Shown here: in pieces, positions 16,803 to 45,245 of the stretch
How positions within the stretch are numbered: the stretch's first letter is position 1
How the letters are laid out: every line of letters begins with the position of its first letter
NCBI GenBank assembly: GCA_022770525.1
Contig: JALEHN010000062.1
Span: 1-47,136, forward strand
Origin: Clostridiales bacterium
GTDB taxonomy: Bacteria > Bacillota > Clostridia > Lachnospirales > Lachnospiraceae
Direction: 5' to 3'
DNA length: 47,136 nucleotides
Position numbers and translations under genes: made by a program
The notes under the pieces: model-generated
Databases searched by the model: none
Told to the model about the DNA's origin: nothing
Seen by the model: only the letters and a program-made list of their open reading frames with translations

Positions 16803-16820
16803 GAGGATGAGATTATAGTC

Positions 16821-19279: not shown

Positions 19280-20917
19280 ATGAATATGAGTAACGAAAAT
19301 AATCATCCATGCGGAACGGAGATTGATGAAGCTTCTAAATGCCGTCAGGAAGGGGAAGATTTAAATTGCCCGCAGAAAGAGGAAAATAAAAATCCGGATG
19401 GGGAAACTAAAGTAGCTGCCGGTGAAGAAAAGGAAGGGGAAGTTAAAATACCTGCCGGTGAAGAGAAGGAAGGGGAAGTTAAAATACCTGTCGGAGCAGA
19501 AAGGGAAGGGGAAGAGAAAACACCTGCCGACGGAGAAAGTGATGAGGAAGCGAAAACGAGCGGCAATGAAAAAGGGAAACGAAAATGGCTGATTCCTGCC
19601 GGAATTGCAGCAGCATTTATGATTGTTATCATTATCATCGTCGTCAATGCATTGCCTAAAATCACACGGATCAAAGTGCAGTATACCGGAGATTGTGAAG
19701 CGGGTGTTGTTCTTGATGAGACAAACGAAGGGTTTATGGTGATCGGTATTAAAGAAAACGGTGACAGGGTTGAGCTGAAGCACTGGAAGATTGAGGAACC
19801 GGCAACTTTGGAACCAGACAGTGCATCAAAAATTACGATATCCTATAAAGATTTTTCGGAGAGCCTGACAATCCGGTGTACGACCAGTGTAGTGACGGAA
19901 ATCGAAGCAGAGTATCGGGGCAGTAAAGAGGCGGGCGTCGTCATTGACAATGATTCGGAAATCATTGTTAAAGCAATACATAAAGATGGTTCTGTGACAA
20001 ATTGTGAGGGATGGGCTGTTGAAGAACCGGCCAAACTGACTGAAGATCAGTCGGTGACGGTACGCATCAGTTATGAGGATGTTTCGTGTTCGCTTACGGT
20101 TAAATGCGCAACCAGCGCAGTGACCGGTATTGAGGCACAATATAACGGAAATACTGAAGCAGGTACAGAGATTAATGATCAATCAAAATTTATCGTTAAA
20201 AAAGTACATAAAAATGGCACGCGCACAACTTGTCCGGAATGGAAAGTCAAAGAAAATGCGGTTCTGGAAGCCGATGGTACGGCAGAAGTTGTTATTGTTT
20301 ATGATCAATTTGAAACAACCTGCGAAATAGAATGCTCTACGGTGACAATGGTAGAATTAACGGCCGAATACGATGGGGATACGAAAGAAAATGTTGTTCT
20401 CGATGAAGAAAATGACGGAATTCATGTGACGGCAAAATATAAAAACGGCAAGACAGAAGAAGTAAAAGATTATGCCATTGAGCAGCCAAAGACGTTAAAA
20501 GCGGGAGAGACATCGACGATTAAGATTACCTATAAAGAAATGTCGTGTGAATTAAAAGTGGAATGTTCGACCCTTAGTGAGAGTCAGTATAAAGCAAAAT
20601 GTGAAAGCATCGCCTATGACAAGCTTGCGCGAAATCCTGACAAATATGACGGAAAGATGGTGAAATTTACAGGGCAGGTCGTTCAGACCATAGGAAATAG
20701 CGGACTTGGCGCATTAAGAGTCAACGTTACTAAAGACAGATACGGTTATGAGGATACGGTCTATGTGTCCTATCTCATCGATTCTTCAAACCGGATTCTG
20801 GAAGATGACATTATTACATTCTACGGTGTTTCGATGGGGCTTTATTCCTATGAATCCGTCATGGGGGCAACAATTACAATTCCGGAGGTTCTGGCGGTTT
20901 ATATAGACTTCAATTAA
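19280..20917 (+). CDS. Membrane-anchored protein with four Ig-like repeats and an OB-like C-terminal domain
   Basis: A 545-residue protein; AAGGAGG precedes ATG 19280. Residues 1-100 are acidic and cytoplasmic and include a 12-residue repeat AGEEKEGEVKIP. One membrane helix spans about 103-123 after KGKRK, giving N-in topology. Outside are four units of roughly 75-80 residues, each opening with a variant of IxVQYxGxxEAGVVLD and closing with SxTxxCxT, typical of bacterial Ig-like beta-sandwich repeats. The last 110 residues (from ARNPDKYDGKMVKFTGQVVQ to ITIPEVLAVYI) resemble the tRNA_anti-like OB fold found in Firmicute surface proteins. No sortase signal. Function unknown; a cell-surface binding or envelope-sensing role is possible. 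Confidence 0.78.
   Translation: MNMSNENNHPCGTEIDEASKCRQEGEDLNCPQKEENKNPDGETKVAAGEEKEGEVKIPAGEEKEGEVKIPVGAEREGEEKTPADGESDEEAKTSGNEKGKRKWLIPAGIAAAFMIVIIIIVVNALPKITRIKVQYTGDCEAGVVLDETNEGFMVIGIKENGDRVELKHWKIEEPATLEPDSASKITISYKDFSESLTIRCTTSVVTEIEAEYRGSKEAGVVIDNDSEIIVKAIHKDGSVTNCEGWAVEEPAKLTEDQSVTVRISYEDVSCSLTVKCATSAVTGIEAQYNGNTEAGTEINDQSKFIVKKVHKNGTRTTCPEWKVKENAVLEADGTAEVVIVYDQFETTCEIECSTVTMVELTAEYDGDTKENVVLDEENDGIHVTAKYKNGKTEEVKDYAIEQPKTLKAGETSTIKITYKEMSCELKVECSTLSESQYKAKCESIAYDKLARNPDKYDGKMVKFTGQVVQTIGNSGLGALRVNVTKDRYGYEDTVYVSYLIDSSNRILEDDIITFYGVSMGLYSYESVMGATITIPEVLAVYIDFN
19418..19561 (+). repeat. 36-bp in-frame tandem repeat, 4 copies
   Basis: Units start at 19418, 19454, 19490 and 19526. 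The first two are nearly identical, the third and fourth increasingly diverged. Each encodes a 12-residue acidic segment of the cytoplasmic tail of the surface protein. Confidence 0.9.
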
Positions 20918-21717: not shown

Positions 21718-21927
21718 GTGAAAGGGGTCATAGATATAGTGAAAGAAATATCCGAAAAAGAGCGGAAAGAAAAAATCGGTGAAATCGTAATGAAGCTGCC
21801 GGATATGACTGATGAGCAGCTGGTGAATGTTCATACTTACACGGTTGATGAGTATGATGAACCAAATCATGAGGCTGTAGCGTTGGACGCAATTATTCAG
21901 TTAAGCAGGAAGTATAAAAATGAGTAA
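21718..21927 (+). CDS. Small helical protein coupled to the caspase gene
   Basis: Up to 69 residues. Candidate starts are GTG 21718 and GTG 21739, neither with an ideal RBS. It is highly charged and helical, ending DEYDEPNHEAVALDAIIQLS-RKYKNE. The caspase ATG (21920) overlaps its last codons, so translation is coupled. The size and position suit an inhibitor, adaptor or activator of the protease, but that is inference from arrangement only. Confidence 0.6.
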   Translation: MKGVIDIVKEISEKERKEKIGEIVMKLPDMTDEQLVNVHTYTVDEYDEPNHEAVALDAIIQLSRKYKNE

Positions 21928-23506
21928 GTATAAGGGGCAGGAAACTGCCCCTGAAACTATGAAGTACCTGAAAAGAAAAACGCTTATAAATCAACATATT
22001 TATGTATTGCTTGCGGCGGTAGGCGAATACAGCCGGATGAAACAGGTAAATTTAAGTTGTTATGATATGGATTTAAAGTTGATGATCAATGCCATAGTCC
22101 AGGGGCTTAAAGTCAATCCTGAGCATATTCGCGTTCTCGGTGAAAAAGGTATTGTTGAAACAAATACATTGGTCAGATGTCTTAAAGAATTCGGCAGCAG
22201 GCTGGATAAGGAAAGTACTTTTATTTTTTATTTTTCAGGTCATGGCAATGGTGAAAGTTTAATTATGAGTGATTCTGCAATTGGATTAAAAGGGCTGGTT
22301 CATTATATCGATCGCATACCTGTGAAAAATAAAATCATTATACTGGACTGCTGTTCTTCCGGAAAAGCCAAAAGCGGCGCAGCCAAAGAACTGAAGGTTG
22401 AAGATTCTCTGGCGGATTTTGTCGGACACGGAACGATGATTATGGCGTCATCATCTGCAGACGAAGTTTCACGAATGGGAATCAATCATAATCACAGTTT
22501 ATTTACCGGCATTGTGGCATCGGTTCTGATGAATAAATCTTTGATACGCAAAGGCGTATTATCTTTGCAGGCTGTGGAAAATGAGATCAGAGCCATATTT
22601 GAAAACTGGAACAAAAAATATCCGGAAAAGTATCAAAAGCCGGTCATCCGCGGCAACATGGGCGGGACCGTTTATTTTCAGGTTGAGGCATATCATGAAT
22701 ACCGGACGAAAGAAATTCATGAAGAATACGATGATTATATTTTGTACAGGGTAAAACCACTGCATGCATCAACCATTAAGCGATTATGCGCATTCGTGAT
22801 TTTAAAAAGAAAAGTATCTTTAGAGGAACTTCCGTTATATACAAAACGCGTTGCTGCGAGACTGAAATATGAAGATGTTTATACCACTGAAAAACAGGAA
22901 ATGTATTTTAAAGGAAAAAAGGTAAGGGCAGTCTGGTGTTACTTCGGATATTCTGAAAGTGATATGATCAGATCCACTTATTTTGCTTATACGATATGGG
23001 CGGCAGATCAGGAAACAGTGCAGATGTATTATACGGAAAAAAAGACATCGAGGGTGATCGATGGCATTTGCGTTAACGATAATAGGGCCTCCTACAATAT
23101 GGTTAAGACAATTCAGGAAGACACAATAAGCAGAGAAGAATACATCGAAATGATTAAAAAGTTGCTGACCGGAATTATTTCAAGGGCTGAAATGTTTATC
23201 GGCAGTTTAAGAGAAATTGAAAATGAAACGATGACGATTGAAAAGGTGCGCAGCGCATACAAAGACTGGATTAAAGATATTTATCACCTGTATCACAAGG
23301 TGACTGACGTGCCTGTGCCTCCTGATGAAATCCATGACTGGGCTGAAAATGTACTGTCATTGGCCGGGTGGGTCGTGGATATTGCCCTGATTTTGGAACA
23401 GTCTGAAAAAGAAAACAAATATGATCAATCGGCGCAATGGCTGATACATCACAAAATTCAGAAATATTATGAATTGCTGGAGAAGGTAAAACAGGTCGGC
23501 GTATAG
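21920..23506 (+). CDS. Caspase-like (C14/metacaspase) protease
   Basis: A 528-residue protein. Residues 20-230 form a caspase-hemoglobinase fold: strand HIYVLLAAVGEY, then FIFYFSGHGNG with catalytic His108, and KIIILDCCSSGKA with catalytic Cys145, then a MIMASSSADEVS strand and a loop with HSLFTGIVASVL. The remaining 300 residues are unlike any domain I recognise and are mixed alpha/beta, then helical. No signal peptide or membrane segment. Bacterial caspase-like proteases act in antiphage or cell-death pathways, usually with a sensor; here the only neighbours are the HTH-like and the small helical gene, so the sensor may be the C-terminal half itself. Confidence 0.85.
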   Translation: MSKYKGQETAPETMKYLKRKTLINQHIYVLLAAVGEYSRMKQVNLSCYDMDLKLMINAIVQGLKVNPEHIRVLGEKGIVETNTLVRCLKEFGSRLDKESTFIFYFSGHGNGESLIMSDSAIGLKGLVHYIDRIPVKNKIIILDCCSSGKAKSGAAKELKVEDSLADFVGHGTMIMASSSADEVSRMGINHNHSLFTGIVASVLMNKSLIRKGVLSLQAVENEIRAIFENWNKKYPEKYQKPVIRGNMGGTVYFQVEAYHEYRTKEIHEEYDDYILYRVKPLHASTIKRLCAFVILKRKVSLEELPLYTKRVAARLKYEDVYTTEKQEMYFKGKKVRAVWCYFGYSESDMIRSTYFAYTIWAADQETVQMYYTEKKTSRVIDGICVNDNRASYNMVKTIQEDTISREEYIEMIKKLLTGIISRAEMFIGSLREIENETMTIEKVRSAYKDWIKDIYHLYHKVTDVPVPPDEIHDWAENVLSLAGWVVDIALILEQSEKENKYDQSAQWLIHHKIQKYYELLEKVKQVGV

Positions 23507-28008: not shown

Positions 28009-28037
28009 TTGACAAACTGTAAATACAGAGTAAAATA
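28009..28037 (+). promoter_or_regulatory. Promoter of the RloA/RloB-like pair
   Basis: A consensus TTGACA at 28009-28014 is followed after 17 bp by AAAATA (28032-28037), with TAAAAT offset by one base. The start codon is 43 bases further on. Confidence 0.65.
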
Positions 28038-28079
28038 GAAGGTAAAATAAGTGAAACGTACAAGTTGGAGGCGAAAATT

Positions 28080-29402
28080 ATGCTATTAGAGTTCAAAACA
28101 AAAAATTATAAATCCTTTGCAGGTGAGATGATCTTTTCTTTGACTCCGGCTCCGAAGCAAAAAGGATTGGATTACAGTGTGCTGATAGCTCATGCGGGAA
28201 GCAAAGACTATAAGGGGCTTTGTTCTGCTGTTATCTATGGGCCAAATGCCTCCGGTAAAACAAATGTCATCGGTGCTATGGATACATTCAAGGCCATCGT
28301 CATGAGAGGCAGCATCAGGAATACGGATATATTTTTCTCGCCTAATGCCGCATCTTCTTCTTTAGAGTTTATTCCAAACTGTAATGGATCCCATGTCCCG
28401 ACAGAGTTTTCCGTTCGCTTTGTGGACGATGAGCTTATGGTTGAGTATTCCATCAAAGCAGATATTGGTACTTTCATGGATGAAAATTATGCAAGAAAGA
28501 TTCTTGAGGAAAAGCTGGTTGTCAACGAAAAGCTGGTGTTTCTCAGGGATGAAACATTGACAGTGAATCTCCCTTCTGTAATTAAGGAATATGTAAATAA
28601 GAGTATTAAGCGTAAGTCCCAGAAGTTGCTTGAGATTGCTCAGAGCAGCCTTGTGAATACAGAACTTTTTTTGAATAATGGGTTTAAGTCCATTTATGCA
28701 CAGGAACTTGTAAAGAAGATTCAGGAGTGGTTTGACAGCAAGTTTATTGTTATATATAAATCAGATGATTTGCGGATGGTCAGAAAGTTTGCTGATCCGA
28801 AGGCAAATACCATCTATGTGGAAAAGACTTTGACAGATGCAGCAAAAGAGTTTGGCATTACTTCAAATGCATTGGGTTATAAGGCAAGCGGAGAAAAAGA
28901 AGGTGATGATGTTGTCCTTTATTCCATTTTCAGTAACAAGAAGGTTGCAGTTCCCGCTGATTTGTTTGAATCCTATGGAACTATCCGGTTTATCAATGAG
29001 TTTCCTTTGGTAATCAATGCTCTTCTGAATGGCGGTACGCTCATCATGGATGAATTTGATGCATCTATTCATCCGATGGCATTGATGAACATCATCAACA
29101 TTTTCCACAACGATGACATCAACAAGAAACATGCACAGTTGGTCTTTAATACACATAACCCGATATTTTTGGATGCGTCTTTATTCCGCAGAGATGAGAT
29201 TAAGTTTGTGGAACGGGATGAAAAGACTGGCAACAGTGTTCACTATGCGTTATCTGATTTTAAGACATCAGATGGTATTCGCAAGGGTGAGGATTATATG
29301 AATAATTATTTCGTCAGCCGTTATGGTGCAATTAAAGATGTTGATTTCGGTCCGATTCTGGAGAAAATTATTGAAGTAAACGAGGTGACCGAAAATGAGT
29401 GA
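28080..29402 (+). CDS. RloA/AbiLi-like AAA ATPase
   Basis: A 440-residue ATPase with GGAGG 8 bases before ATG 28080 (an in-frame TTG 15 bases earlier is inside the RBS region). It begins MLLEFKTKNYKSFAGE as SMC/RecF-like AAA_15/21 proteins do. Walker A is GPNASGKT (residues 54-61). Walker B is TLIMDEFDASIHP, followed by the FNTHNP D/H-loop. The ABC-signature region is the divergent FESYGTIRF. The next gene overlaps by 8 bases. Such ATPase plus RloB pairs correspond to AbiL and to anticodon-nuclease-associated Rlo loci, acting in abortive phage defence. Confidence 0.88.
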   Translation: MLLEFKTKNYKSFAGEMIFSLTPAPKQKGLDYSVLIAHAGSKDYKGLCSAVIYGPNASGKTNVIGAMDTFKAIVMRGSIRNTDIFFSPNAASSSLEFIPNCNGSHVPTEFSVRFVDDELMVEYSIKADIGTFMDENYARKILEEKLVVNEKLVFLRDETLTVNLPSVIKEYVNKSIKRKSQKLLEIAQSSLVNTELFLNNGFKSIYAQELVKKIQEWFDSKFIVIYKSDDLRMVRKFADPKANTIYVEKTLTDAAKEFGITSNALGYKASGEKEGDDVVLYSIFSNKKVAVPADLFESYGTIRFINEFPLVINALLNGGTLIMDEFDASIHPMALMNIINIFHNDDINKKHAQLVFNTHNPIFLDASLFRRDEIKFVERDEKTGNSVHYALSDFKTSDGIRKGEDYMNNYFVSRYGAIKDVDFGPILEKIIEVNEVTENE

Positions 29403-30057
29403 GAAATTGGAAACCCGAAAATATACATTTACAGTTGAGGGGGAAACTGAACAGTGGTATCTGTTTTGGCTGCGGGATCAGATTAACACTTGCCCGGAGC
29501 GTACATATAATGTTTCTATTGATGCAAAGGTGCAGCAAAGCCCTAAAAAATTCTTTAAAAATGCCAATGCGAAAGCTACACCAAAGGTTATCCATATCTG
29601 TGATGTGGAGAGTAATGACAAGGTTCATACGGATCAATTTCAGAACATTTTAGATGAGATGAAGGAAGCAAAGACACAGAAAGGTATTGTATATAATCTG
29701 GGTTATAGCAACTTCGCATTTGAACTTTGGATTGTTCTGCATAAAAGAGATTGTAATGGATCGCTTAACCATAGGAAACAGTACCTTGATTATATCAATC
29801 TGGCATTTGGAGAGAAGTTTGAAAACTTGGATCAATATAAGCATGGAGATAACTTCAAACGATGTCTGTCTAAGCTGAAATTGGAGGATGTGAAGAATGC
29901 CATTCGCCGATCTGATGCTATCATGGAGAGGAACAGGCAGGATCAGAAGAAACTGATTAAGTACAAAGGATATGCCTATTACCGTGAGAATCCGGCGTTG
30001 TCTATTCATGAGGCAGTGAGAGAAATGTTTATAGAATGTGGGCTGATAAAGAAATGA
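29395..30057 (+). CDS. rloB: RloB/AbiLii-like protein
   Basis: A 220-residue protein. The N-terminus YTFTVEGETEQWYLFWL has the TOPRIM/OLD-like glutamate strand, VIHICDVESND carries the acidic D-x-E pair, and SNFAFELWIVLHKRDCNG is the RloB family block, followed by helical segments ending with EMFIECGLIKK. It is the presumed nuclease effector of the ATPase gene before it. There is no evident terminator in the 54 bases before the helicase gene, so this pair might be transcribed with the following operon. Confidence 0.87.
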   Translation: MSEKLETRKYTFTVEGETEQWYLFWLRDQINTCPERTYNVSIDAKVQQSPKKFFKNANAKATPKVIHICDVESNDKVHTDQFQNILDEMKEAKTQKGIVYNLGYSNFAFELWIVLHKRDCNGSLNHRKQYLDYINLAFGEKFENLDQYKHGDNFKRCLSKLKLEDVKNAIRRSDAIMERNRQDQKKLIKYKGYAYYRENPALSIHEAVREMFIECGLIKK

Positions 30058-30111: not shown

Positions 30112-32577
30112 ATGGAGCCTAAGTATTCGATTTTATATTTTAAGAAAGATCTCAATGAAAATTATGGGGATATCAAAAGATTTTTATATTCGGGCATTAA
30201 AGTTTTCTGGTTTGGAAATGAACGTGATGCCGGGCGGTTAAAGGCAGATTTTCGGGGGTTTTCAAAAGAATTTTTTCTGCAGGTGTTTGATATCGGCGGT
30301 GTGGCGGTGCTTGAGCCGTTTTCAGGCTGCGTGATTGCTGACGGTGAAGGCATTGACGGGGACAGTGATAAGCAGAGGCTAATCAATGTTCTTGAAGACA
30401 AGCTTCCTGCGTTTAATGCGGCTCAGTATAAAGTGGAGCATTGCTTAGCGGAGGCAAATATCGTTGTAAAGGCTTCGGCGGGGACGGGAAAGACGACGGT
30501 GATGATCGACCGTATTTTATATTTGATGCACATGATTCCGGATCTGGATATGTCGGAAATTTATATGATTACATTTACAAACGAAGCAACGAATCAGATG
30601 AATGACAGACTTCAGAAGACTCTCCTTAAAAAGTATGCGCTGACAAAAAACAAGCGTTATATGACGTGGCTTGAGCAGCAGTCCCAGATGCATATCAGTA
30701 CGATTGACAGCCTGGCCTATGATTTGTTTCGAAGATTCGGCACCGGTGCTGGATTCGGACGGGATCTGCAGATTAAACCATTTGAAAAGGAACGGAAGGA
30801 TCTGATTAAAGATCTGCTTTCAGATGCGCTTGATGACAGAAATCCCATTACCGTGCAGATTGGCATGACTTATTCCGAAGCCGCAAGGCTTGTTGATGAT
30901 TATTGGAAAGAGCTGACAAGTAAAGGGTATACGATATCGGAAATTCTTAATAAAGACTGGGGCGATGCCGGCTGTGAGCCGGAAGCTGCAGGTTTTCAGC
31001 GTATTTTAAAAACAGTGCTTCAAAAATTTGAAGAAAAGTACCGTCAGATGAAGCTGGATGCCAATGCGATTTCCATTAATGATTTATTTTTTGATTTTGG
31101 ACATTATCTTCTGGAAGGGCGTTTAAGCTGCAGCGGTCTTGCCATGCGGTACCTTTTCGTGGACGAGTTTCAGGATACCGATGCCACGCAGATCCGGACA
31201 TTTGCGGGGCTTGTTAAGACCCTGGGGGCAAAATTATTTGCGGTAGGCGATGTCAAACAAAGTATCTATGCATTTAAAGGGGCAACAGATGCGGCTTTTG
31301 ATATACTGGAGGAGGAAATGCACGGAAAGCTTCGTCATTTCAGCCTTCGCAATAACTATCGGACGTGCGGCAATATCATGAAGGTCATGGAGAAATATTT
31401 CTTTGCGTGGGCTGATGAGGGACTGCTGCGTTATGAGGAATCGGTACGCCCTTTCAACAAAGATGAGGGTATGGTGGAGATGGATATTGTGATGAATAAA
31501 GCGTCCATGCAGGCCCAGACGATGAATATGATTGATCAGGCGCTGCAGGAGCTTGAGCTTGATGTGCGCTCCGGCGGGAAAAAGGTGACGGCTCAGACAA
31601 AGGTTGCCGTACTGGTCAGGGGAAATACAAAAGCGGCAGAGCTTGCCCGACTTTGCCGTAAACACGGCAAAACGGTTGTTTTAAACTCGGACCGGCCTTT
31701 CTTTTTGTCCAAAGCGGTGAGAGATTTCTATGCCATGATCAGTTCTTATATTTTTGAGGAGCAGCCGATTTATACATATAATTACCTGATGACCCCTTAC
31801 GCGGCCTACGACGGTGTGATTTCCGTGACGGAAATGGAACAGCTTGAGGGAAAGCAGGAGGCGTTAAATCAGTATCTGGATCAGTTTAAAACAAAGACAA
31901 GCTGGTATAAATATCAGCGGGAGTTTCGGATCCGTCCTGTGCTGTCGGTGATACGGGAAATCGTGGGCAATGAAAATATCATTGAAAATTTCATTGCCAT
32001 GGATAAAGTTCATATGAACGGGGAGGGCTGGACCGAAGCGAAGAAAAACAGACAGGCACTTATTGATGCGAAAAGTTACCGCATGAATCTGGATAAGCTG
32101 ATGGATATCATTCAGCAGCGTATGGATGGGGAGTTTACCACGCTGTATGATCTGTATGTTTATCTGTCTTTGATGATCGCGACGAATCGGGAAGAGATGG
32201 AACCGGATATCGATATGACCGATGATTATACAAGCGTGTATATTATGACGGTCCATAAATCAAAAGGACTTGAGTATGACACGGTGATTTTGCCGGCAAT
32301 GAATCACAGTGTTGTCCCGGTTAAAAGAACGACGATTTTATCCGATGCGCATAAAGTGGCCTGGTATTACAAAAGAAATGACCGCAGATTTATGCAGAGT
32401 GCCTGGTTTGAGACGCTTTGGAAAGATGCTGCCCAAAAAGGCGTTGAAGAGGAAACAAGGATGCTTTATGTTGCCATGACAAGGGCAGTCAACAAGCTGA
32501 TACTTCTGGTGAGTCCTTGGGATTCTCATGAAAGCTGGTCGTCACTGATACGAAGGGTAGGGCTTATCAATGAGTAA
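30112..32577 (+). CDS. UvrD/AddA-like superfamily 1 helicase without nuclease domain
   Basis: An 821-residue helicase; AAAGGAG lies 6 bases before ATG 30112. A divergent N-terminal 95 residues precede the Q motif FNAAQYKVEHC, Walker A ASAGTGKTT (121-129), TFTNEATNQM (Ia), FVDEFQDTDATQ (II), AVGDVKQSIYAFKGA (III), NNYRTC, TVHKSKGLEYD (V) and YVAMTRAVNKL (VI). These are all the motor motifs of a 3'-5' SF1A helicase closest to the AddA/RecB type. It ends shortly after motif VI, so the C-terminal nuclease of AddA/RecB is absent. The next gene overlaps by 8 bases and resembles AddB, suggesting an AddAB-derived complex. Confidence 0.88.
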   Translation: MEPKYSILYFKKDLNENYGDIKRFLYSGIKVFWFGNERDAGRLKADFRGFSKEFFLQVFDIGGVAVLEPFSGCVIADGEGIDGDSDKQRLINVLEDKLPAFNAAQYKVEHCLAEANIVVKASAGTGKTTVMIDRILYLMHMIPDLDMSEIYMITFTNEATNQMNDRLQKTLLKKYALTKNKRYMTWLEQQSQMHISTIDSLAYDLFRRFGTGAGFGRDLQIKPFEKERKDLIKDLLSDALDDRNPITVQIGMTYSEAARLVDDYWKELTSKGYTISEILNKDWGDAGCEPEAAGFQRILKTVLQKFEEKYRQMKLDANAISINDLFFDFGHYLLEGRLSCSGLAMRYLFVDEFQDTDATQIRTFAGLVKTLGAKLFAVGDVKQSIYAFKGATDAAFDILEEEMHGKLRHFSLRNNYRTCGNIMKVMEKYFFAWADEGLLRYEESVRPFNKDEGMVEMDIVMNKASMQAQTMNMIDQALQELELDVRSGGKKVTAQTKVAVLVRGNTKAAELARLCRKHGKTVVLNSDRPFFLSKAVRDFYAMISSYIFEEQPIYTYNYLMTPYAAYDGVISVTEMEQLEGKQEALNQYLDQFKTKTSWYKYQREFRIRPVLSVIREIVGNENIIENFIAMDKVHMNGEGWTEAKKNRQALIDAKSYRMNLDKLMDIIQQRMDGEFTTLYDLYVYLSLMIATNREEMEPDIDMTDDYTSVYIMTVHKSKGLEYDTVILPAMNHSVVPVKRTTILSDAHKVAWYYKRNDRRFMQSAWFETLWKDAAQKGVEEETRMLYVAMTRAVNKLILLVSPWDSHESWSSLIRRVGLINE

Positions 32578-35209
32578 TAGAGTTTATACATATACAAAGA
32601 TCACAGAACTGAAAAATGCCCGCTATTTTTCAGAGATTGCGCCCCTGCCTCAGCTTGCCATGTCCCTTGAAATGAAGAATGCCATGGCGCACGATATGCC
32701 CATATTCAGAAAGAACATTATGGCTTTTTCGGTGTTTCAGACGAGACTGTTTCCGGGATGGAATACAAGCGGCCAGCGGTTTGGATATTATACGGTTTTA
32801 AACCGTATGCTTCGTGAAAAAATTGCGGCTGCCAAAGATAAATCTGAGAGGGAGTGGCTTTTCGGGTGCAAAAAAAATATCACTTTTGCGGTTAATAATA
32901 TTATTCGGTTCGAAGAAGCGGGGGTTCATCCGTGTGACATCAAAGAACGGGACAGAGATATATTATTGTTTCTTGATATGTGGCGTTGTCTTGAGGCAGC
33001 GGATGGTCATATAAAAAATTTCAGGCAGCGGCTTATTCAGCTTCACGACCCGGAAGTTTTCAGTGAGGAAGTCGGCAAAATTTTTCGGTTTCACGGCAGA
33101 AAGCAGATGGTGTGGCACGGTTTTCAGTTTTTTACACCGCTGCAGCAGTTTGTGTATGACTGCTTTATAAGGGCCGGTTATGACATTTACGCACTGATTC
33201 AGTATGAGGAAAAGTATCCTTATGCAAATGAGATATGGGATTATCTTTATAGGCCTTCGCATGGCTTTCCGGAAAAAAGCGCATGGATCAGACAGGAAAA
33301 ATCAGATGAAAAAAATCCCCTTGGAGAAATTTTTGAAACCGGTGAAAAGGTAGTGGCTTCAAACATAAAAATGATAAAATATGACAATACGGTGGAATTT
33401 GTTGAAGATATTGCCCGCATCAAAGATGAAGGCTTTTATATTTACTGCGCGGATGATAAAGCGGCGAATCATATGCTGAAAGATTATTTCCCGGAGCGCT
33501 ACGGCGTTCGGAATCTTCTGGCATATCCGGTCGGGCAGTTTATATACGTGCTGCATAAAATGTGGGATGAAAACCGCCAGTGTATTGTATTGAGTCAGGA
33601 TGGGTTAAGAAAGTGCTTTGCCTCCGGGTGGATGTCGGTCGATGGCAAAAGCAGTGTGCATTATACGGAAGATCTGGAGCGCCTGTTGCCGTATTTCGAA
33701 GGATGTCATACGGTGGATGAGTGGTACAAACGGCTGGATGTTTTTATGGATGCCTGTGAAAATGCCGTTGATGTATTCGCGGCAGAGGCAACGGTAAATG
33801 AGAATATTGTGGATATTTCCGCATCAGAGGTTTCGGGCTGTGGATATGATGCCCTAAAACAGCAGATGTTTGGGAACCCGCTGAAACATTTTGGCCCATT
33901 TTCCATAAAAGAAGATCGGCGTGATGCGGTCATTGCGATGATTAAAAAGCTTATACAGATGGCAGACGCTTTGTTTGGAGAGAATGCGCCGGTTTCAATT
34001 CAGACGCATATGAGTAAGCTTGATGCGATGCTTTATATGCCGGATGGTATGCCGAAGGCGTTATATCTGGAAGAAAAGCAAAAGGTTAAACAGATTTTTG
34101 AGGCTCTGGAGAGTGATCAAATAAGGGATTTTATGTGTTATCCGGGTGATCTGGCCGCTGCGATGCTTTCTTTGATGGGTGATAAGAATCAGGAAGAGCT
34201 GAATGAGGAATTAAGTGAGCATCAGCGCAATGTTGATCTGAAAGTTCTTGTATTTAATATATTTCAGGTGGAATCGGCACCGATTGCCGCAAATAGCAAA
34301 GTACATATCTGTCTTGCGGACATCTCCCGATTGCCGGGGGGAGCCGGTAAATACAGCTGGCCGGTTGATGAAGCCTGGCTGAAATCCATTTTACAAAACA
34401 CGAAGAAAATTTACATAAAAAACTGGATTGAAAACAATCATTTAACAGCATTGTCGAACCGGTATTATACGTATGCTGCTTTAAAAAATGATAACGTGGA
34501 AATTTCATGGATACAGAAACAGGGCGAGAAAATGTATGCGCCGTCACCATATGTGACCCTTCTTGATCAGCTGTCGGATGCGAAAATTGAAGAAAGTCAT
34601 GTGCGAAAGCTTGATTTAATGACGGTTTCAAAAATCGATGCAAAGAAAAGATTTGAGAAAGAATACATATCTTTGGAAAATCCAAAGTTTCATTTTTATG
34701 ACAGTGAACTGGCGTATGCATTATGCCCGATGCGTTTTGTATACAGTTATGTACTGGGCAATCGTCCGGCTTACAGAAACGAATATCAGCAAAATCGTGC
34801 GCTTGTGCGGTTAGTTCAGTCACTGTATGAGCTTTTGAAAGATAAGTATTCTGTTGAGCAGATTGCGGCAAATGTATTTGAACTGTTTCCGGGTATCCGA
34901 AAGGCTGAAAAACGGCAGATGATCGATGATGCTATCCGGTGGCCGTTACCTGAGTGTGAAGGGGGTTATACCTCTTTCGGGGAATACAGGTATACAAACT
35001 ATCGTTTAAATATGGTATTTCCGGATCAGGGAGCTTATGAAGCCGCAAAAAGAGCAGAGCAGATGATGCGCCGGGAAGGACGCAAAGACATTTATTATGC
35101 ACAGAGGGGAACGGAAGGTTCAAGAAACTGCGAATTATGCCCGCATTCCGGGTATTGTATGGAAGCGCTTTTTGGCGTAGATTATAAAGAGGGAGAAGCA
35201 TCATGGTAA
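32570..35209 (+). CDS. AddB-like Fe-S protein, nuclease core apparently lost
   Basis: An 879-residue partner of the helicase. The first 690 residues look like an AddB/RecC-type degenerate helicase scaffold with no Walker A, containing WHGFQFFTPLQQFVYDCF as in AddB. Near the C-terminus ALCPMRFVYSYVLG provides the first cluster cysteine and CELCPHSGYC provides C-x2-C-x5-C, the AddB iron-sulfur staple. Only about 135 residues separate them, and no G-R-I-D or D-Y-K type catalytic motif of the PD-(D/E)XK core is seen between. So the cluster is kept but the nuclease seems deleted. Start ATG 32570 overlaps the helicase stop. Structural or DNA-binding role is inferred. Confidence 0.75.
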   Translation: MSNRVYTYTKITELKNARYFSEIAPLPQLAMSLEMKNAMAHDMPIFRKNIMAFSVFQTRLFPGWNTSGQRFGYYTVLNRMLREKIAAAKDKSEREWLFGCKKNITFAVNNIIRFEEAGVHPCDIKERDRDILLFLDMWRCLEAADGHIKNFRQRLIQLHDPEVFSEEVGKIFRFHGRKQMVWHGFQFFTPLQQFVYDCFIRAGYDIYALIQYEEKYPYANEIWDYLYRPSHGFPEKSAWIRQEKSDEKNPLGEIFETGEKVVASNIKMIKYDNTVEFVEDIARIKDEGFYIYCADDKAANHMLKDYFPERYGVRNLLAYPVGQFIYVLHKMWDENRQCIVLSQDGLRKCFASGWMSVDGKSSVHYTEDLERLLPYFEGCHTVDEWYKRLDVFMDACENAVDVFAAEATVNENIVDISASEVSGCGYDALKQQMFGNPLKHFGPFSIKEDRRDAVIAMIKKLIQMADALFGENAPVSIQTHMSKLDAMLYMPDGMPKALYLEEKQKVKQIFEALESDQIRDFMCYPGDLAAAMLSLMGDKNQEELNEELSEHQRNVDLKVLVFNIFQVESAPIAANSKVHICLADISRLPGGAGKYSWPVDEAWLKSILQNTKKIYIKNWIENNHLTALSNRYYTYAALKNDNVEISWIQKQGEKMYAPSPYVTLLDQLSDAKIEESHVRKLDLMTVSKIDAKKRFEKEYISLENPKFHFYDSELAYALCPMRFVYSYVLGNRPAYRNEYQQNRALVRLVQSLYELLKDKYSVEQIAANVFELFPGIRKAEKRQMIDDAIRWPLPECEGGYTSFGEYRYTNYRLNMVFPDQGAYEAAKRAEQMMRREGRKDIYYAQRGTEGSRNCELCPHSGYCMEALFGVDYKEGEASW

Positions 35210-36021
35210 ACAGGCGTTTTTGGGAGGATGCAAAAAGTGTCTGGGTGATGGCGGCACCTGCTAAAATCCCGGGTGCAAAGACCGGTTCGGGCGGTGTCAT
35301 CTCCCCGGAACTTTTTAAAGATCCGTTGGATATAGAAAAATCGGGAAGTTTCGGTATGAATGACGGTGTATGGGCCGGGGAATATGATGAAGAAATTCCT
35401 TTCGACCAGCTGAATGATGATGCGGTATTATGGGCTGTGTTTAACGGGGAGGATATGCCGGGACAGCCACGTCAGATGAAAGTATCGGGGCAGGGAAAAC
35501 ATTCGGGGCAGCAAAGTGCATCGGCGCAGAAGGCGCCGGAGCCTCCGAAAGTGCCGCCGCGGCCGAAGCTGGACATAAAAGCCTTTGAACAGGCGATGGC
35601 AGAGAAAACATTGCCGGGATTTGTTGCTGCGGCACAGCTCCTTATGAAATGTCAGCTGCCGGAAGAAATGAATCAATTATATGTACAGCTGACAGAGCGT
35701 ATTCCGGTGCTTCAAAATGCGTCTGAGAAATTTGAGGCTGTGTACCAGGCGGATCTGGAACCGTTTTATGAATATTACATACCGGAAGCGCTGGAGCTTA
35801 CAGAAGTCTATCTTGAATATCTGGACAACGGTGTCGGTGAGGATATTGTAAAAGATACGGAACAGGAGATTGTTGATGCGGTGAAAAAGCTGATACAGGC
35901 GGTCAATGAAAAGACCGATGAAATTTATAAATTTGCGTCCATTGAAATCAAGGCGAAGGCAAAAGCACTGGAGTCACTGATGAGCCAGAACGGATTTGTG
36001 GATTCGGATTATAAATTATAG
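35203..36021 (+). CDS. XpaC-like protein, partner of TelA
   Basis: A 272-residue protein whose ATG overlaps the AddB-like stop by 7 bases; GGGAGAAGC precedes it. Residues 1-85 contain an acidic region, 86-120 a Gln/Ser/Pro-rich linker (PEPPKVPPRPK), and 140-265 a helical domain like that of XpaC (FYEYYIPEALELTEVYLEYL, then DTEQEIVDAVKKLIQAVNE and a helix ending LESLMSQNGF). The membrane helices of classical XpaC are missing, so it is soluble. XpaC and TelA genes are often neighbours in Firmicutes, as here. Its last codons are the seed of a 60-bp tandem repeat. Confidence 0.75.
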   Translation: MVNRRFWEDAKSVWVMAAPAKIPGAKTGSGGVISPELFKDPLDIEKSGSFGMNDGVWAGEYDEEIPFDQLNDDAVLWAVFNGEDMPGQPRQMKVSGQGKHSGQQSASAQKAPEPPKVPPRPKLDIKAFEQAMAEKTLPGFVAAAQLLMKCQLPEEMNQLYVQLTERIPVLQNASEKFEAVYQADLEPFYEYYIPEALELTEVYLEYLDNGVGEDIVKDTEQEIVDAVKKLIQAVNEKTDEIYKFASIEIKAKAKALESLMSQNGFVDSDYKL

Positions 36022-36206
36022 TGAAAGCGCAGGATATGGCCAGATGCCGGATTGGATGCGGATTCAGACGATAAATTATAGTGAAAGCGCAGGAAACGGC
36101 CAGATGCCGGATTCGATGCGGATTCGGACGATAAATTATAGTGAAAGCACAGGAAACGGTCAGATGCCGGATTCGATGCGGATTCGGAGGATATATTATT
36201 TTGAAA
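36001..36206 (+). repeat. 60-bp tandem repeat, 3.4 copies
   Basis: Exact 60-bp units start at 36001, 36061 and 36121, with a partial unit at 36181. The first unit begins with the last six codons and stop of the XpaC-like gene, and every unit repeats that 3' end (GATTCGGA-, ATAAATTATAG) and a segment CAGATGCCGGATT. Identity between units is above 90 percent. The last partial unit runs into the RBS AGGAAGG of telA. Confidence 0.92.
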
Positions 36207-36222
36207 GAGGAAGGTAAATGTT

Positions 36223-37434
36223 ATGGAAAATCGTTATGATAACAATCCTGATATGGACGAGGAACTTGCAAATATAAAAACACCGGTATTGTCGATTCAT
36301 CCGGAAGAGAAGACATTTAAAGATCCTTTTGGCCGGGAACCGGCTTTAGAAAGCGCGGATGCATCGGATATGAAAAGTGAATCGGAAGCATCCGCCGGTT
36401 CTGTCAGTGAATCACAGCTCAGTGAAGATGAAAAAAGGCAGGTGGAAGCCTTTGTAAAGCAGATTGATATCAGAGACGTAAAAATGGTGAATTCCTATGG
36501 GGCGAATGCACAGAAGGGTATTTCCACCTTTTCTGTTTCCATTACAAACAATGTCAGGGCAAAAGAGTTCGGAGATGTCGGTGTGAGCTTAAGAGAGCTT
36601 GGTGCAGCAATCGGAAGCACGACTGCTCCGGAAAAGAAAGGCCTTTTTGGACTTTTACAAAAAGGAAAGAGAAAGGCGGCATATTTGATTTCAAATTATG
36701 AATCGGCGGAGGCAAGCATCAAAAAAATTGAAAAGGATCTGCAGAGACATCAGCAGCAGCTGACAAAAGACATATATGTTTTTGATCAGATGTATGACAT
36801 GAATCTGGAGTTTTATAAAGAATTGACGATGTACATTATTGCCGGAAAGAAAGCGCTTGAGCTGGCGAAAAAAACGAAGTGCTTAGAACTTCGAACGAAG
36901 GCGGAGAAGACCGGTGATCAGCTGGATATACAGATGTACAGAGATTATGAAAGTGCCTGCAAGCGGTTTGAAAAGCGGATTTCCGATCTGGAAACCACAA
37001 GGCTTGTGTCGATTCAGATGGCACCTCAGATCAGACTTTTGCAGGATGCAGACCAGGAAGTGGTAGATAAACTGCGTTCGGATATTATAAATACGATACC
37101 TCTGTGGAGAAACCAGATGGTTCTGGCACTGGGGATTACACATAGCAGACGGGCTCTTGATGCTCAGAGTGCTGTGACAGATATGACCAATGAAATGTTA
37201 AAAAGAAATGCGGAAACATTAAAACAGGGCGCCATTGACGCGGCGCGGGCTTCTGAAAAAGGCATTGTCGATGTGGAAACACTGAGGAAAATCAATGCGG
37301 ATATTATCGCGTCAATCAACGAAGTCGTGCAGATTCATGAAGAAGGTTCCAGAAGGAGGGCTTTGGCTCAGGAGGAACTGGCTAAGATTGAAGATGAATT
37401 AAAGCAGGCGCTTTTGGATGCCGGAAGCAGATAA
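36223..37434 (+). CDS. telA: TelA-family toxic anion resistance-like protein
   Basis: A 403-residue soluble coiled-coil protein with AGGAAGG before ATG 36223. A disordered acidic N-terminus of about 65 residues precedes the TelA domain: QVEAFVKQIDIRD, VNSYGANAQKGISTFSV, LQRHQQQLTKDIYVFDQMYD, YIIAGKKALELAK, SIQMAPQIRLLQDADQ and a run ending ALGITHSRRALDAQSAVTD. It is named for tellurite resistance, but in most genomes acts in poorly understood stress or envelope systems with XpaC, as its upstream neighbour is here. It is last in the helicase operon, before a strong terminator. Confidence 0.9.
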   Translation: MENRYDNNPDMDEELANIKTPVLSIHPEEKTFKDPFGREPALESADASDMKSESEASAGSVSESQLSEDEKRQVEAFVKQIDIRDVKMVNSYGANAQKGISTFSVSITNNVRAKEFGDVGVSLRELGAAIGSTTAPEKKGLFGLLQKGKRKAAYLISNYESAEASIKKIEKDLQRHQQQLTKDIYVFDQMYDMNLEFYKELTMYIIAGKKALELAKKTKCLELRTKAEKTGDQLDIQMYRDYESACKRFEKRISDLETTRLVSIQMAPQIRLLQDADQEVVDKLRSDIINTIPLWRNQMVLALGITHSRRALDAQSAVTDMTNEMLKRNAETLKQGAIDAARASEKGIVDVETLRKINADIIASINEVVQIHEEGSRRRALAQEELAKIEDELKQALLDAGSR

Positions 37435-37546: not shown

Positions 37547-37586
37547 ACCCCTGTAAGACGGATATGCGTCTTACAGGGGTTTTTTT
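37547..37586 (+). terminator. Rho-independent terminator
   Basis: ACCCCTGTAAGACG (37547-37560), loop GATATG, CGTCTTACAGGGGT (37567-37580), then TTTTTT. A perfect 14-bp stem that ends the telA operon. Confidence 0.95.
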
Positions 37587-41441: not shown

Positions 41442-44400
41442 ATGGTAAGACGAATTTATGTGGAAAAAAAGCCGGGTCTTCGTCAGGAAGCTGCCGTTTT
41501 GCTCAATGAAATACGCACGCTGTTAGGGATTACGGCTTTAACAGACCTGCGTCTTGTTCAGCGCTATGATGTTGAAGGATTAGATGAGGATGCTTTTCAG
41601 AGGGCAGTTCAGACTGTTTTTTCAGAACCCCAGGTCGATGATACAATGGCACAGTGTCCGGAAGGCGATTTTGAGGTGTTTGCCGTGGAATCTCTGCCGG
41701 GTCAGTTTGACCAGCGTGCGGATTCCGCCAGCCAGTGTATCCAGCTGATGACCCAGGGAGAACGTCCGGCTGTCCGCACGGCAAAATTATATTTACTTTC
41801 GGGAAAGCCTGGTAAAAAAGATATTGAAAAAATTAAAAAATATGTGATTAATCCGGTAGAATCCAGGGAAGCTTCATTGGAGCCCGTGGATACTTTGCAG
41901 GTGACATATGATATCCCGACAATGGTTGAAACGGTGGAAGGATTTATTTCCATGAGTGAGGAAGCTTTGGTAAAGCTTTCAGAGCGTCTTGGTCTGGCGA
42001 TGGATATTGATGATTTGAAGTTCCTGCAGACCTATTTCCGTGATGAGGCGCAGAGAGATCCGACGATTACAGAGATTCGTGTCGTTGATACATATTGGTC
42101 TGATCATTGCCGTCATACAACATTCTCTACTTATATTGACAATGTTGAGATTCATGATGAAGAGATTCAGGCGGCTTATGAGCGGTATCTGGCAGCCCGC
42201 GTGGAAGTTTACGGCGAAGCAAAGGCCGCTGTCCGTCCGCAGACGCTGATGGATATTGCGACCATTGGGGCGAAAGTGTTAAAGAAAAGAGGAATGCTGC
42301 CTGAACTTGATGAAAGCGAGGAGATCAATGCCTGCTCCATTCATGTCACTGCAGATGTTGACGGTGAAGCACAGGACTGGCTTTTGATGTTTAAAAATGA
42401 AACACACAATCATCCGACAGAGATTGAGCCTTTTGGCGGTGCGGCAACATGTATCGGCGGCTGTATCAGGGATCCGTTATCGGGACGCGCCTATGTCCAT
42501 CAGGCTATGCGTGTGACTGGATGCGGCGATCCCCGCGCAGCGCTTGATGAAACTCCGGAAGGAAAATTACCGCAGCGTAAGCTGGCGCAGACTTCGGCGG
42601 CAGGGTATTCTTCCTATGGCAACCAGATCGGTCTTGCAACAGGTCATGTCGCTGAAATTTACCATGAAGGCTATATCGCAAAGCATATGGAATGCGGTGC
42701 AGTCGTCGGCGCGGCACCGGCATGTAATGTTCGCCGTGAATGCCCGGTACCGGGTGATGTGGTCGTGTTACTTGGCGGACGTACAGGGCGCGACGGTATC
42801 GGCGGCGCAACCGGATCCTCTAAAAGTCATAATTTAAAATCTTTAACGACGATGGCTTCTGAAGTTCAGAAGGGCAATGCGCCGGAAGAACGTAAGATCC
42901 AGAGATTGTTCAGAAACAGTGATGTGACACGTCTTATTAAACGGTGCAATGACTTTGGTGCAGGCGGTGTCAGTGTGGCCATCGGTGAACTGGCGGACGG
43001 ACTTCGCATCAACCTTGACGCTGTCCGTAAGAAATATGACGGTCTTGACGGCACGGAGCTTGCCATTTCCGAATCTCAGGAACGTATGGCGGTTGTTGTG
43101 GCTAAGGAAGATGCGGATCAATTGATTGCGGCAGCCGAAAAAGAAAATCTGGAAGCCTACCGTGTGGCTGTTGTTACAGAAGAACCCCGTATGGTCATGG
43201 AATGGAACGGCGTGACGATTGCGGATCTCAGCCGCGATTTTCTGAATACAAACGGTGCGGTAAAGCATGCACGGGCTTATGTTGACGGTAAAGATCGTAC
43301 GGCCTTTGGTGCAAAAACATATGGAACATTAAGAGAAATGGCAGGAAGTCTTAAGTCGGCATCCCGACGCGGTCTGGCGGAGAGGTTTGATGCTTCTGTC
43401 GGTTCGGGCTCCGTGCTGATGCCGTTTGGCGGAAAGACCCAGCGGACACCGGCGCAGGCAATGGCCGCGCTGTTTCCGGTGCTTCCGGGTCAGGAAACGA
43501 ACCAGGCCAGTGTCATGTCCTGGGCATGTGACCCGGATCAGACAAGCATTGATCCATATACAGGCGCCTACAATACCGTCTATCATTCGATGGCTAAACT
43601 GGTGGCTGCCGGTGCAGACTATAAGAAAGCGTATCTGACACTTCAGGAATTTTTTGAAAAGCTTCGCCGGGAAGCAGACAGATGGGGAAAGCCGCTTGCC
43701 GCACTGTTAGGTGCATTTGACGCGCAGATTGAACTGGGCGCCGCAGCCATCGGCGGCAAGGACTCGATGTCAGGTTCTTTTCTTGATTTAGATGTGCCTC
43801 CGACACTGATTTCTTTTGCCATTGCACCGATTAAGGCAGACGAAGTCTTGTCGCCGGAATTTAAAGAACCGGGACATCCGGTATATCTGTTTGAAGGAAA
43901 AACTGCCGGAGAAAAGAAAACAGCATGGGAGAAATTCTATGCGCTGCATAAAGCCGGCAAAGTCAAAGCGGCATGGGCTGTTGAAAACGGCGTTGCCGAG
44001 GCCGTTATGAATATGGCGTTCGGTAATGAAATCGGTTTTGCGGCAGCAGGTACGGAAGTTCAGTGGGATGTTCTTTATCCGGGTGCCATCGTGGCAGAAT
44101 TGACAGAAGATACGGCAGATGCTTTGCTGATCGGTGTGACAACAAAAGAACCGTTTATTGCCATTGGTGATGACTGTGCGCCGATCGCAGAACTGCTGGC
44201 ATTAAATGAAGGTGTACTTGAAGACGTATATCCAAACAGAACAAAATTGGATGAGGCCAAAGTGCCTGTGCTGGCATCAACCGCGGTTTCATATGCGTCA
44301 TCAAAGACCGGTACAGGGGAAACAAAGACCGGTGCAGTAGCTTTAAAGGCCGGCACAGCGGTATCAAAGACCGGTACAGCAGCTCTAAAGGCCGGCACAG

Positions 44401-45245
44401 CGGTATCAAAAGCCGGTACAGCAGTTCCAAAGACCGGTGCAGGGGTACCGAAAGTACTGATTCCGGTATTTCCGGGTACAAACTGTGAATATGACGGTGC
44501 CCGTGCCGTAGAGAAAGCAGGAATGAAACCGGAGATTATCGTTGTGAACAACCAGTCTGCCCGGGGCGTTGCTGATTCCGTATCACGTTTTGCAAAAGCA
44601 GTACAAGGCAGCCAGATTATTTTTATACCGGGCGGATTCTCCGGCGGTGACGAACCGGACGGATCAGGTAAATTTATCACAGCATTTTTCCGTAATCCGG
44701 AAGTATGTGAAGCCACGATGGATCTGCTGAAAAAACGGGATGGTCTGATGCTTGGTATTTGTAATGGTTTCCAGGCACTGATTAAACTGGGACTTGTGCC
44801 TTACGGGGAAATTATTGATACTGATGAGACATGTCCGACACTGAGTTATAATGTTATCGGGCGTCATCAATCTAAAATTGTGCGTACAAGAGTTGCCTCT
44901 AATCGTTCGCCATGGCTTTCCAAAGCGCAGGTGGGAGATATTGTCAATGTGCCTGTGTCTCACGGCGAAGGACGTTTCCTTTGTGAAACCAAGCTGCTGA
45001 AGAAATTGGCGGCAAACGGGCAGATTGCGACACAGTATGTGGATTTAAACGGTGTTCCGACAATGGATGTAGACTTCAATCCAAATGGTTCTGTCTGGGC
45101 CGTTGAGGGAATTACTTCCCCGGATGGCCGCATCCTTGGAAAAATGGGGCATTCGGAGCGCATTGGCGACAGCCTGTACCGTAATGTACCGGGAAATTAT
45201 GATCTGCGTCTGTTTGAGGCGGCAAAAGATTATTACAGTTTATAA
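41442..45245 (+). CDS. purL: Phosphoribosylformylglycinamidine synthase, single-chain, with repeat linker
   Basis: A 1267-residue long-form FGAM synthase (glutamine amidotransferase fused to the synthetase). Order: N-terminal PurS-like part, FKNETHNHPTEIEPFGGAAT, the two synthetase halves with GGRTGRDGIGGATGSSKSH and AAIGGKDSMSG, a linker at residues 954-1002, then the glutaminase with PVFPGTNCEYDGARA, the nucleophile Cys in LGICNGFQAL and SHGEGRF. The linker is a 7-residue Lys-[Thr/Ala]-Gly unit repeated seven times. AGGAGG precedes the start. All catalytic motifs are intact. Confidence 0.96.
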   Translation: MVRRIYVEKKPGLRQEAAVLLNEIRTLLGITALTDLRLVQRYDVEGLDEDAFQRAVQTVFSEPQVDDTMAQCPEGDFEVFAVESLPGQFDQRADSASQCIQLMTQGERPAVRTAKLYLLSGKPGKKDIEKIKKYVINPVESREASLEPVDTLQVTYDIPTMVETVEGFISMSEEALVKLSERLGLAMDIDDLKFLQTYFRDEAQRDPTITEIRVVDTYWSDHCRHTTFSTYIDNVEIHDEEIQAAYERYLAARVEVYGEAKAAVRPQTLMDIATIGAKVLKKRGMLPELDESEEINACSIHVTADVDGEAQDWLLMFKNETHNHPTEIEPFGGAATCIGGCIRDPLSGRAYVHQAMRVTGCGDPRAALDETPEGKLPQRKLAQTSAAGYSSYGNQIGLATGHVAEIYHEGYIAKHMECGAVVGAAPACNVRRECPVPGDVVVLLGGRTGRDGIGGATGSSKSHNLKSLTTMASEVQKGNAPEERKIQRLFRNSDVTRLIKRCNDFGAGGVSVAIGELADGLRINLDAVRKKYDGLDGTELAISESQERMAVVVAKEDADQLIAAAEKENLEAYRVAVVTEEPRMVMEWNGVTIADLSRDFLNTNGAVKHARAYVDGKDRTAFGAKTYGTLREMAGSLKSASRRGLAERFDASVGSGSVLMPFGGKTQRTPAQAMAALFPVLPGQETNQASVMSWACDPDQTSIDPYTGAYNTVYHSMAKLVAAGADYKKAYLTLQEFFEKLRREADRWGKPLAALLGAFDAQIELGAAAIGGKDSMSGSFLDLDVPPTLISFAIAPIKADEVLSPEFKEPGHPVYLFEGKTAGEKKTAWEKFYALHKAGKVKAAWAVENGVAEAVMNMAFGNEIGFAAAGTEVQWDVLYPGAIVAELTEDTADALLIGVTTKEPFIAIGDDCAPIAELLALNEGVLEDVYPNRTKLDEAKVPVLASTAVSYASSKTGTGETKTGAVALKAGTAVSKTGTAALKAGTAVSKAGTAVPKTGAGVPKVLIPVFPGTNCEYDGARAVEKAGMKPEIIVVNNQSARGVADSVSRFAKAVQGSQIIFIPGGFSGGDEPDGSGKFITAFFRNPEVCEATMDLLKKRDGLMLGICNGFQALIKLGLVPYGEIIDTDETCPTLSYNVIGRHQSKIVRTRVASNRSPWLSKAQVGDIVNVPVSHGEGRFLCETKLLKKLAANGQIATQYVDLNGVPTMDVDFNPNGSVWAVEGITSPDGRILGKMGHSERIGDSLYRNVPGNYDLRLFEAAKDYYSL
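44301..44447 (+). repeat. 21-bp in-frame tandem repeat, 7 copies, inside purL
   Basis: Seven units in exact 21-bp phase (44301, 44322, 44343, 44364, 44385, 44406, 44427) encode SKTGTGE, TKTGAVA, LKAGTAV, SKTGTAA, LKAGTAV, SKAGTAV and PKTGAGV. Units 3 and 5 are almost identical, and 4 is close to 1 and 6, indicating recent duplication. It separates synthetase and glutaminase domains. Confidence 0.95.

Follow-up and report, generated by a model that had tools for sequence, protein, structure and literature searches.

A conserved but patchily distributed four-gene operon joins a predicted AddAB-like motor lacking a cutter to XpaC-like and TelA proteins and may act in anti-phage or anti-plasmid defence

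We analysed a stretch of 47,136 nucleotides from a Clostridiales bacterium of the family Lachnospiraceae (assembly GCA_022770525.1, JALEHN010000062.1; contig C107 of the source genome G000, which totals 3.2 Mb in 155 contigs), referred to below as the window. Within it lies an operon encoding an AddA/RecB-like helicase, an AddB-like protein, an XpaC-like protein and TelA (Table 1). The order of these genes is conserved between loci, the operon itself is patchy and accessory, and from its distribution and neighbours we infer, with moderate confidence, that it serves in defence against phages or plasmids, as a module whose basis is an AddAB-like motor without a cutter.

Results

Gene order is conserved across loci

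The first-pass annotation of the window had described a tight operon whose first three genes overlap by 7-8 bases, and the reading frames bear this out: all four genes are open frames on the plus strand, with an overlap of 8 bases between the helicase and AddB-like genes and of 7 bases between the AddB-like and XpaC-like genes. TelA was said to follow only a repeat array, and indeed the 201 bases from the XpaC-like stop to TelA are almost entirely taken up by the 60-bp (base pair) array. The strong terminator said to close the set corresponds to the stem-loop listed in Table 1.

A scan of genome contigs returned 11 loci, namely L001-L010, from records named Lachnospiraceae bacteria, Blautia, Butyrivibrio, Brotaphodocola or Eubacterium ruminantium, and one Tumebacillus locus (L011). 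An order-wide search added L073 (genome G610), and its other two strong foreign matches appear to be the L001 and L002 contigs again. The 12-locus set used below consists of the window, L001-L010 and L073. Orthologues are not scattered in this survey: helicase, AddB-like and XpaC-like genes stand in this order at 12 of 12 loci, and TelA comes next in the operon at 10 (the TelA-complete loci). L009 stops right after the XpaC-like gene, and L001 is considered in the Discussion. Because the 8-base overlap between helicase and AddB-like genes recurs at 11 of the 12 loci (17 bases at the twelfth, counted from the longest-frame start), the gene order is more than chance.

Departures from the plain order are few. 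A UvrD-like gene sits between the AddB-like and XpaC-like genes in L010 and L073, an AlbA-domain gene lies between the XpaC-like gene and TelA in L004, and the AddB-like and XpaC-like frames of L008 contain in-frame stops as cut. Pairwise identity between loci is 67-98% for TelA, 40-96% for the helicase, 30-93% for the AddB-like protein and 26-93% for the XpaC-like protein. The motor genes of L010 are nearer to those of L073 (helicase 55%, AddB-like 46%) than to those of L003 (42% and 32%), whereas its XpaC-like protein (41% vs 27%) and TelA (82% vs 74%) are nearer to L003 than to L073. This mismatch suggests that the XpaC-like/TelA pair can pass as a cassette from one motor lineage to another, and that TelA may face a constant partner.

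The motor pair is AddAB-derived and lacks nuclease motifs

For the window helicase, RecB and AddA models rank top yet stay under their cut-offs (AddA TIGR02785, 156 bits against a cut-off of 707.65). Among the operon helicases, Walker A is present in 12 of 12 and the DEFQD motif in 11 of 12, and the C-terminus lies 28-29 residues past motif VI in 11 of 12, the motif being unrecognised in L007. The second protein has an AddB fold according to its AlphaFold2 model and matches in PDB. It carries the invariant cysteines C719, C854, C857 and C863, a set kept in all 60 rows of the family alignment, which may bind an iron-sulphur cluster. A pattern check of the same 60 rows found neither Walker A nor the AddB nuclease motif in any of them, while the genome's own canonical AddB carries both. 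Since comparison of the AddB-like alignment with that AddB showed no relationship (hhalign probability 2.9), and comparison with solved chains likewise, it is the fold and the cysteines that carry the AddB assignment. Taken together, an AddAB derivation of the motor is supported by motif for the helicase and by fold for the AddB-like protein.

The XpaC-like protein is a remote relative that lacks the membrane span

The XpaC-like protein matches PF10112 below the gathering score (E-value 0.036; 14.5 bits against a cut-off of 29.8), and only 1 of 39 aligned homologues matches the family at E < 0.01. A profile of these 39 rows aligned by hhalign with the genome's canonical XpaC over 86 columns near the C-terminus (probability 82, E 1.1e-5), and both the canonical and the XpaC-like genes stand immediately 5' of a TelA. 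The maximum mean hydropathy is 0.49-1.51 in the 12 operon proteins versus 2.47 in canonical XpaC, which has a strong span. On sequence alone the label is weak, and the operon protein is only remotely XpaC. The proposal in the first-pass annotation of an AddAB-derived motor joined to a TelA/XpaC module thus stands in its conserved link and its AddAB ancestry, and has to be amended in that the nuclease and AddB ATPase motifs are missing and the relation to XpaC is remote.

The operon TelA forms a clade of its own

TelA was named for tellurite or toxic-anion resistance and, to our knowledge, its mechanism is not settled. The window protein is a clear family member (344 bits against PF05816, gathering score 30). 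In a maximum-likelihood tree of 54 rows, whose bootstrap was not fully settled, all 10 operon TelAs form one clade (support 100/99), the housekeeping TelA of the same genome groups with the common Lachnospiraceae TelAs, and 12 of 13 TelAs from Ter clusters fall apart from the operon clade. The thirteenth is the nearest outsider to that clade; it comes from L110 of genome G102, where positions 6448-10272 hold a Ter-like cluster with XpaC, a short TelA, this nearest-outsider TelA and, directly after it, a rhomboid gene. TelA matches at 1e-30 occur in 189 of 397 Lachnospiraceae genomes and, among the matches listed, none except the window's own copy exceeds 54% identity.

The operon is patchy and accessory

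Of the 397 genomes sampled from the family, 1 had a near AddB-like relative; the figure was 4 for the order sample (392 genomes) and 1 for the phylum sample (398 genomes), with the source genome included every time; the genus-level sample consisted of that genome alone. The protein database yielded 84 AddB-like relatives at E 0.001. In the order listing, congeners without the AddB-like gene stand beside carriers (G153, G543 and G570 beside G610; G263 beside G703). Remote AddB-like relatives occur in two plasmid records, and no viral copy was found by pattern scan of viral contigs or among 50,697 phage records. The genome retains canonical AddAB and canonical XpaC-TelA elsewhere.

Rhomboid and endonuclease genes follow TelA in relatives

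All-against-all comparison of locus genes revealed two families after TelA. A DNA/RNA non-specific endonuclease whose N-terminus carries a hydrophobic span occurs in L002, L003, L004, L010 and L073 (5 of the 10 TelA-complete loci), and a rhomboid protease in L006, L007, L008 and L073 (4 of 10), so that one or both are present at 8 of 10. Pfam supports the L002 endonuclease (PF13930) and the L007 and L073 rhomboids (PF01694), and the remainder were assigned by similarity. Relatives of both families are found at other places in some of these genomes, so the two were probably recruited. Separately, contig C126 of the source genome (L167, positions 863-1130) holds an interrupted remnant of a rhomboid of the TelA-linked type, its middle gone, beside further genes.

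Defence genes flank most loci

Searching flanking proteins with PADLOC gave matches at 1e-20 or better for 13 of 20 proteins from 11 loci. These include HKD+Snf2 (L002), a DrmA/DISARM-like protein (L003), a Csm6-like CARF-HEPN protein (L004), type IV restriction (L005), type III restriction with an MkoA-like protein (L008), a TmtA-like/Tmn-like protein (L010) and BREX-like PglX, BrxHI, PglZ and BrxA (L073); one of the 13, the UvrD in L003, is generic. A defence match is present at 7 of the 11 loci, or at 8 of 12 when the window is counted with its AbiLi-like (1e-70) and AbiLii-like (3e-12) genes. As controls, 10 flanking proteins from nine Ter-type loci and the canonical AddAB locus, some of which may belong to the Ter clusters themselves, gave no PADLOC match at this threshold (flanking versus control, Fisher's exact test, p ~0.001).

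The motor pair recurs with other partners

Twelve remote AddB-like relatives (41 to 80 bits) came up in a family-level search, and each of them adjoins a helicase of 1036-1110 amino acids (aa). Where the contig continues (11 cases), the next genes encode proteins of 1074-1151 aa (split in two in L050), 806-830 aa and 257-271 aa. In L051, the one locus scanned, the first two of these are SNF2/DpdE-like and DEAD/DpdF-like. L041-L052 and L074 share this run, in which a UvrD-type helicase and an AddB-like protein are joined by genes of about 1100, 820 and 260 aa, and it has the appearance of another system built around this motor pair. In nine loci of the wider family that were checked, XpaC-like and TelA genes were not found.

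In Tumebacillus (L011) and on a Geobacillus plasmid (L066), the helicase and AddB-like genes are followed by a second UvrD-type helicase, and XpaC-like and TelA genes are absent; a type II methyl-directed restriction gene also lies close to the motor pair of L011. An Exiguobacterium plasmid (L067, positions 5325-17102) carries helicase and AddB-like genes and, after them, genes for a hypothetical protein, an ATP-binding protein, an HNH endonuclease and an SMI1/KNR4 protein. Its AddB-like protein is annotated as PD-(D/E)XK nuclease family, which counts against a motor without a cutter, though the pattern check did not find the motif. The AddB-like family, here and in remote relatives with other partners, keeps the cysteines while lacking ATPase and nuclease motifs. 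This points to a motor that holds or moves DNA rather than cutting it and that is common to several operon types, in which the AddB-like member has mostly escaped annotation.

Other features of the window

The array begins within the final codons of the XpaC-like gene, and for this reason it looks like a local duplication of the 3' end of that gene. Of the nine other TelA-complete loci, eight have 1 to 134 bases separating TelA from the XpaC-like gene, and the ninth (L004) holds the inserted gene there. We considered the array as a functional element of the conserved system and rejected this, as it overlaps the XpaC-like stop and the spacer is short or absent at other loci. Its predicted folding is barely above that of shuffled sequences (z -1.68, with 4 of 200 shuffles equally good).

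Upstream, the AbiLi/AbiLii-like pair (28065-30057) ends 54 bases 5' of the helicase on the same strand. It is possibly part of the same transcription unit and lies outside the conserved core; the AbiLi-like gene is not a neighbour at the other loci. Because its G+C content (0.39) is lower than that of the four operon genes (0.42-0.48), the pair may be a later arrival, as judged from base composition. Promoter-like sites are common in the region (43 found, 29 expected). About 4.5 kb before the pair, a gene at 21920-23506 (+) encodes a 528-aa protein with a caspase-like domain (Peptidase_C14, E 6e-9). Two further tandem repeats lie inside reading frames: one of 36/72 bp at 19396-19557, in the frame of a 558-aa protein with no Pfam match at 1e-5, and one of 21/42 bp at 44300-44442, in that of a 1267-aa FGAM synthase-like protein. 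The window contains no Rfam matches and no tRNAs.

Table 1. The operon and associated features in the window
Feature	Coordinates	Strand	Basis
Promoter-like site, 11/12, ahead of the AbiL pair (weak evidence)	28009..28036	+	Pattern scan
AbiLi-like AAA ATPase, upstream neighbour	28065..29402	+	PADLOC AbiLi E 1e-70; Pfam AAA_21
AbiLii/RloB-like protein, upstream neighbour	29395..30057	+	Pfam RloB E 6.9e-20; PADLOC AbiLii E 3.1e-12
Helicase, AddA/RecB-like SF1 (superfamily 1) without C-terminal nuclease domain, 821 aa	30112..32577	+	Pfam UvrD-helicase and UvrD_C
AddB-like protein, 879 aa	32570..35209	+	AlphaFold2 model, PDB matches, invariant cysteines, motif counts
XpaC-like protein without membrane span, 272 aa	35203..36021	+	hhalign to canonical XpaC, hydropathy
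Tandem array, 60-bp unit, 3.5 copies, local	36000..36207		Repeat scan, 91% matches
TelA, operon-specific clade, 403 aa	36223..37434	+	PF05816 score, tree
Terminator-like stem-loop, 14 pairs and T run	37547..37580	+	Best such site within 27-40 kb

Discussion

Among the functions that the first-pass annotation had offered, defence is favoured because the distribution is patchy and the neighbours include defence genes; an envelope role is suggested only in the relatives, by the rhomboid and the membrane-span endonuclease; and DNA repair is disfavoured because the genome retains canonical AddAB and the operon is accessory. In the mechanism that we propose, the helicase and the AddB-like protein would pair in the manner of AddAB and load onto DNA ends, the dead AddB half holding or reading DNA while the helicase pulls. 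Such ends could arise from incoming linear DNA, or from cuts or stalls made by a neighbouring system. The engaged motor would then recruit or switch the XpaC-like/TelA pair, an output arm that might block the DNA or signal at the membrane and that, in relatives, the rhomboid protease and the endonuclease would extend. TelA would be an effector or adaptor rather than an ion-resistance protein. More broadly, the helicase and dead AddB could be a reusable, cutter-less motor chassis of immunity that grips incoming DNA within the cell and passes it to an envelope-bound XpaC-like/TelA output arm (with the rhomboid and surface endonuclease in relatives), other relatives of the pair being coupled to helicases of the SNF2 and DEAD types, to another UvrD helicase or to an HNH endonuclease; in this full form the idea is doubtful.

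Several observations weigh against the defence reading. Flanking proteins of L001, L006, L007 and L009 gave no PADLOC match at 1e-20, and the flanking and control proteins compared were hand-picked and are not independent. A Card1-like CARF endonuclease lies near the canonical XpaC-TelA pair of the source genome, together with two ABC transporter genes (L039, 15388-16638, minus strand), outside the control set. The AddB-like protein, the XpaC-like protein and TelA match no PADLOC-DB 2.0.0 model at 1e-3, and the structure model of TelA is too poor to back an effector fold. L001 has no TelA downstream; its contig does carry, 13 kb upstream among other genes, an operon-type TelA that an internal gap has shortened. 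Finally, neither the window nor L005 has the rhomboid or endonuclease genes.

The strongest rival, possible though unlikely, is that the operon, rather than forming a system by itself, serves the defence system found upstream as an accessory arm, processing DNA ends or stalled DNA produced by that neighbour. The gene 5' of the helicase is co-directional at 11 of 12 loci and lies no more than 70 bases away at 6 of 12, and the neighbour differs each time (AbiL, HKD and Snf2 with UvrD, DISARM-like, Csm6-like, type IV restriction, Tmn-like, BREX-like). However, the core stays unchanged across these very different neighbours, no defence gene was found beside L001, and L006, L007 and L009 again count here for want of a 1e-20 neighbour.

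It is improbable that the operon is an accessory to DNA-damage or replication repair, in which a cutter-less AddAB paralogue would unwind broken ends without degradation and the XpaC-like protein and TelA would act as scaffold. The AddAB ancestry of the motor speaks for such a role, but canonical AddAB is retained, the operon is rare and patchy, and its neighbours are defence genes.

An operon for envelope or toxic-compound stress, like canonical xpaC-telA but with the motor genes as passengers, is quite improbable. Passages on the canonical pair describe sigma W control in B. subtilis (PMC3498285), higher nisin and tellurite sensitivity when Listeria TelA is disrupted (PMC12791056) and a proposed sub-membrane role (PMC7824862), and a rhomboid follows TelA at 4 of 10 TelA-complete loci. 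As far as the tree shows, however, these data do not concern the operon TelA, which forms a separate clade; moreover the membrane span is gone from the XpaC-like protein, and motor and XpaC-like genes stay together at 12 of 12 loci. The reading is also less likely because the canonical XpaC-TelA pair is still present in the genome. A DNA-uptake system, in which a nuclease on the cell surface and a helicase within would import DNA, is very improbable indeed: it could draw on the endonuclease with its N-terminal span (5 of 10 TelA-complete loci), but half of these loci, the window included, lack that gene, no channel gene was found among the neighbours scanned, and the neighbours are defence genes.

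Comparison with known systems

The operon shares with AddAB an AddA/RecB-like helicase beside a protein of AddB fold, as well as the cysteine spacing C-x2-C-x5-C. It differs in that the helicase has no nuclease domain and the AddB-like protein has neither Walker A nor the nuclease motif; in addition, the inter-cysteine stretch spans 116-154 residues in the operon proteins, whereas in the genome's own AddB at least 269 residues separate the cluster from the nearest upstream cysteine. With the canonical XpaC-TelA pair (xpaC-yaaN of B. subtilis, lmo1966-lmo1967 of Listeria) it has in common an XpaC-type gene immediately 5' of TelA and an alignable C-terminal XpaC region, but it has its own TelA clade, a spanless XpaC-like protein and a fixed link to a DNA motor. 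Ter clusters, in which TelA accompanies TerD and others, share TelA and, in L110, the rhomboid after it, yet all but one of the Ter-type TelAs belong elsewhere in the tree, and no TerB, TerC, TerD or TerY was found among the 16 window proteins scanned with Pfam (a subset of the window genes) or among the neighbour genes scanned.

Gabija also has a UvrD-type helicase, GajB, which senses DNA ends and whose role there is described in passages of PMC10952713, and the setting here is likewise a defence neighbourhood. The operon helicase is, however, nearer to RecB/AddA than to GajB models and its partner is AddB-like; no GajA lies beside it, and GajA models get no further than E 1e-4, with the AbiLi-like protein. 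Passages on Shango and Bunzi, which contain TerB (PMC10952713), and on CoCoNuTs, beside which TerY-P occurs (PMC11090510), offer a parallel in proteins first named for tellurite resistance that appear in a defence setting, although neither TelA nor XpaC is mentioned there and no TerB or TerY was found among the genes scanned here. An AddB-like protein with an inactivated helicase domain is described beside non-CRISPR repeat arrays in a passage of PMC10910872; that system has a PD-(D/E)XK nuclease/helicase and interspersed arrays, whereas the operon has no nuclease motif and a plain tandem repeat. The literature searched did not, in its titles or passages, tie TelA or XpaC to an AddAB-like pair, and the four-gene combination was not found in it; Anantharaman 2012 (PMC4104200), represented by passages citing it, might mention this neighbourhood. 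The operon is neither AddAB nor Gabija, and it gives a TelA of a separate clade a fixed DNA-motor partner, which makes the role of TelA testable by ordinary genetics.

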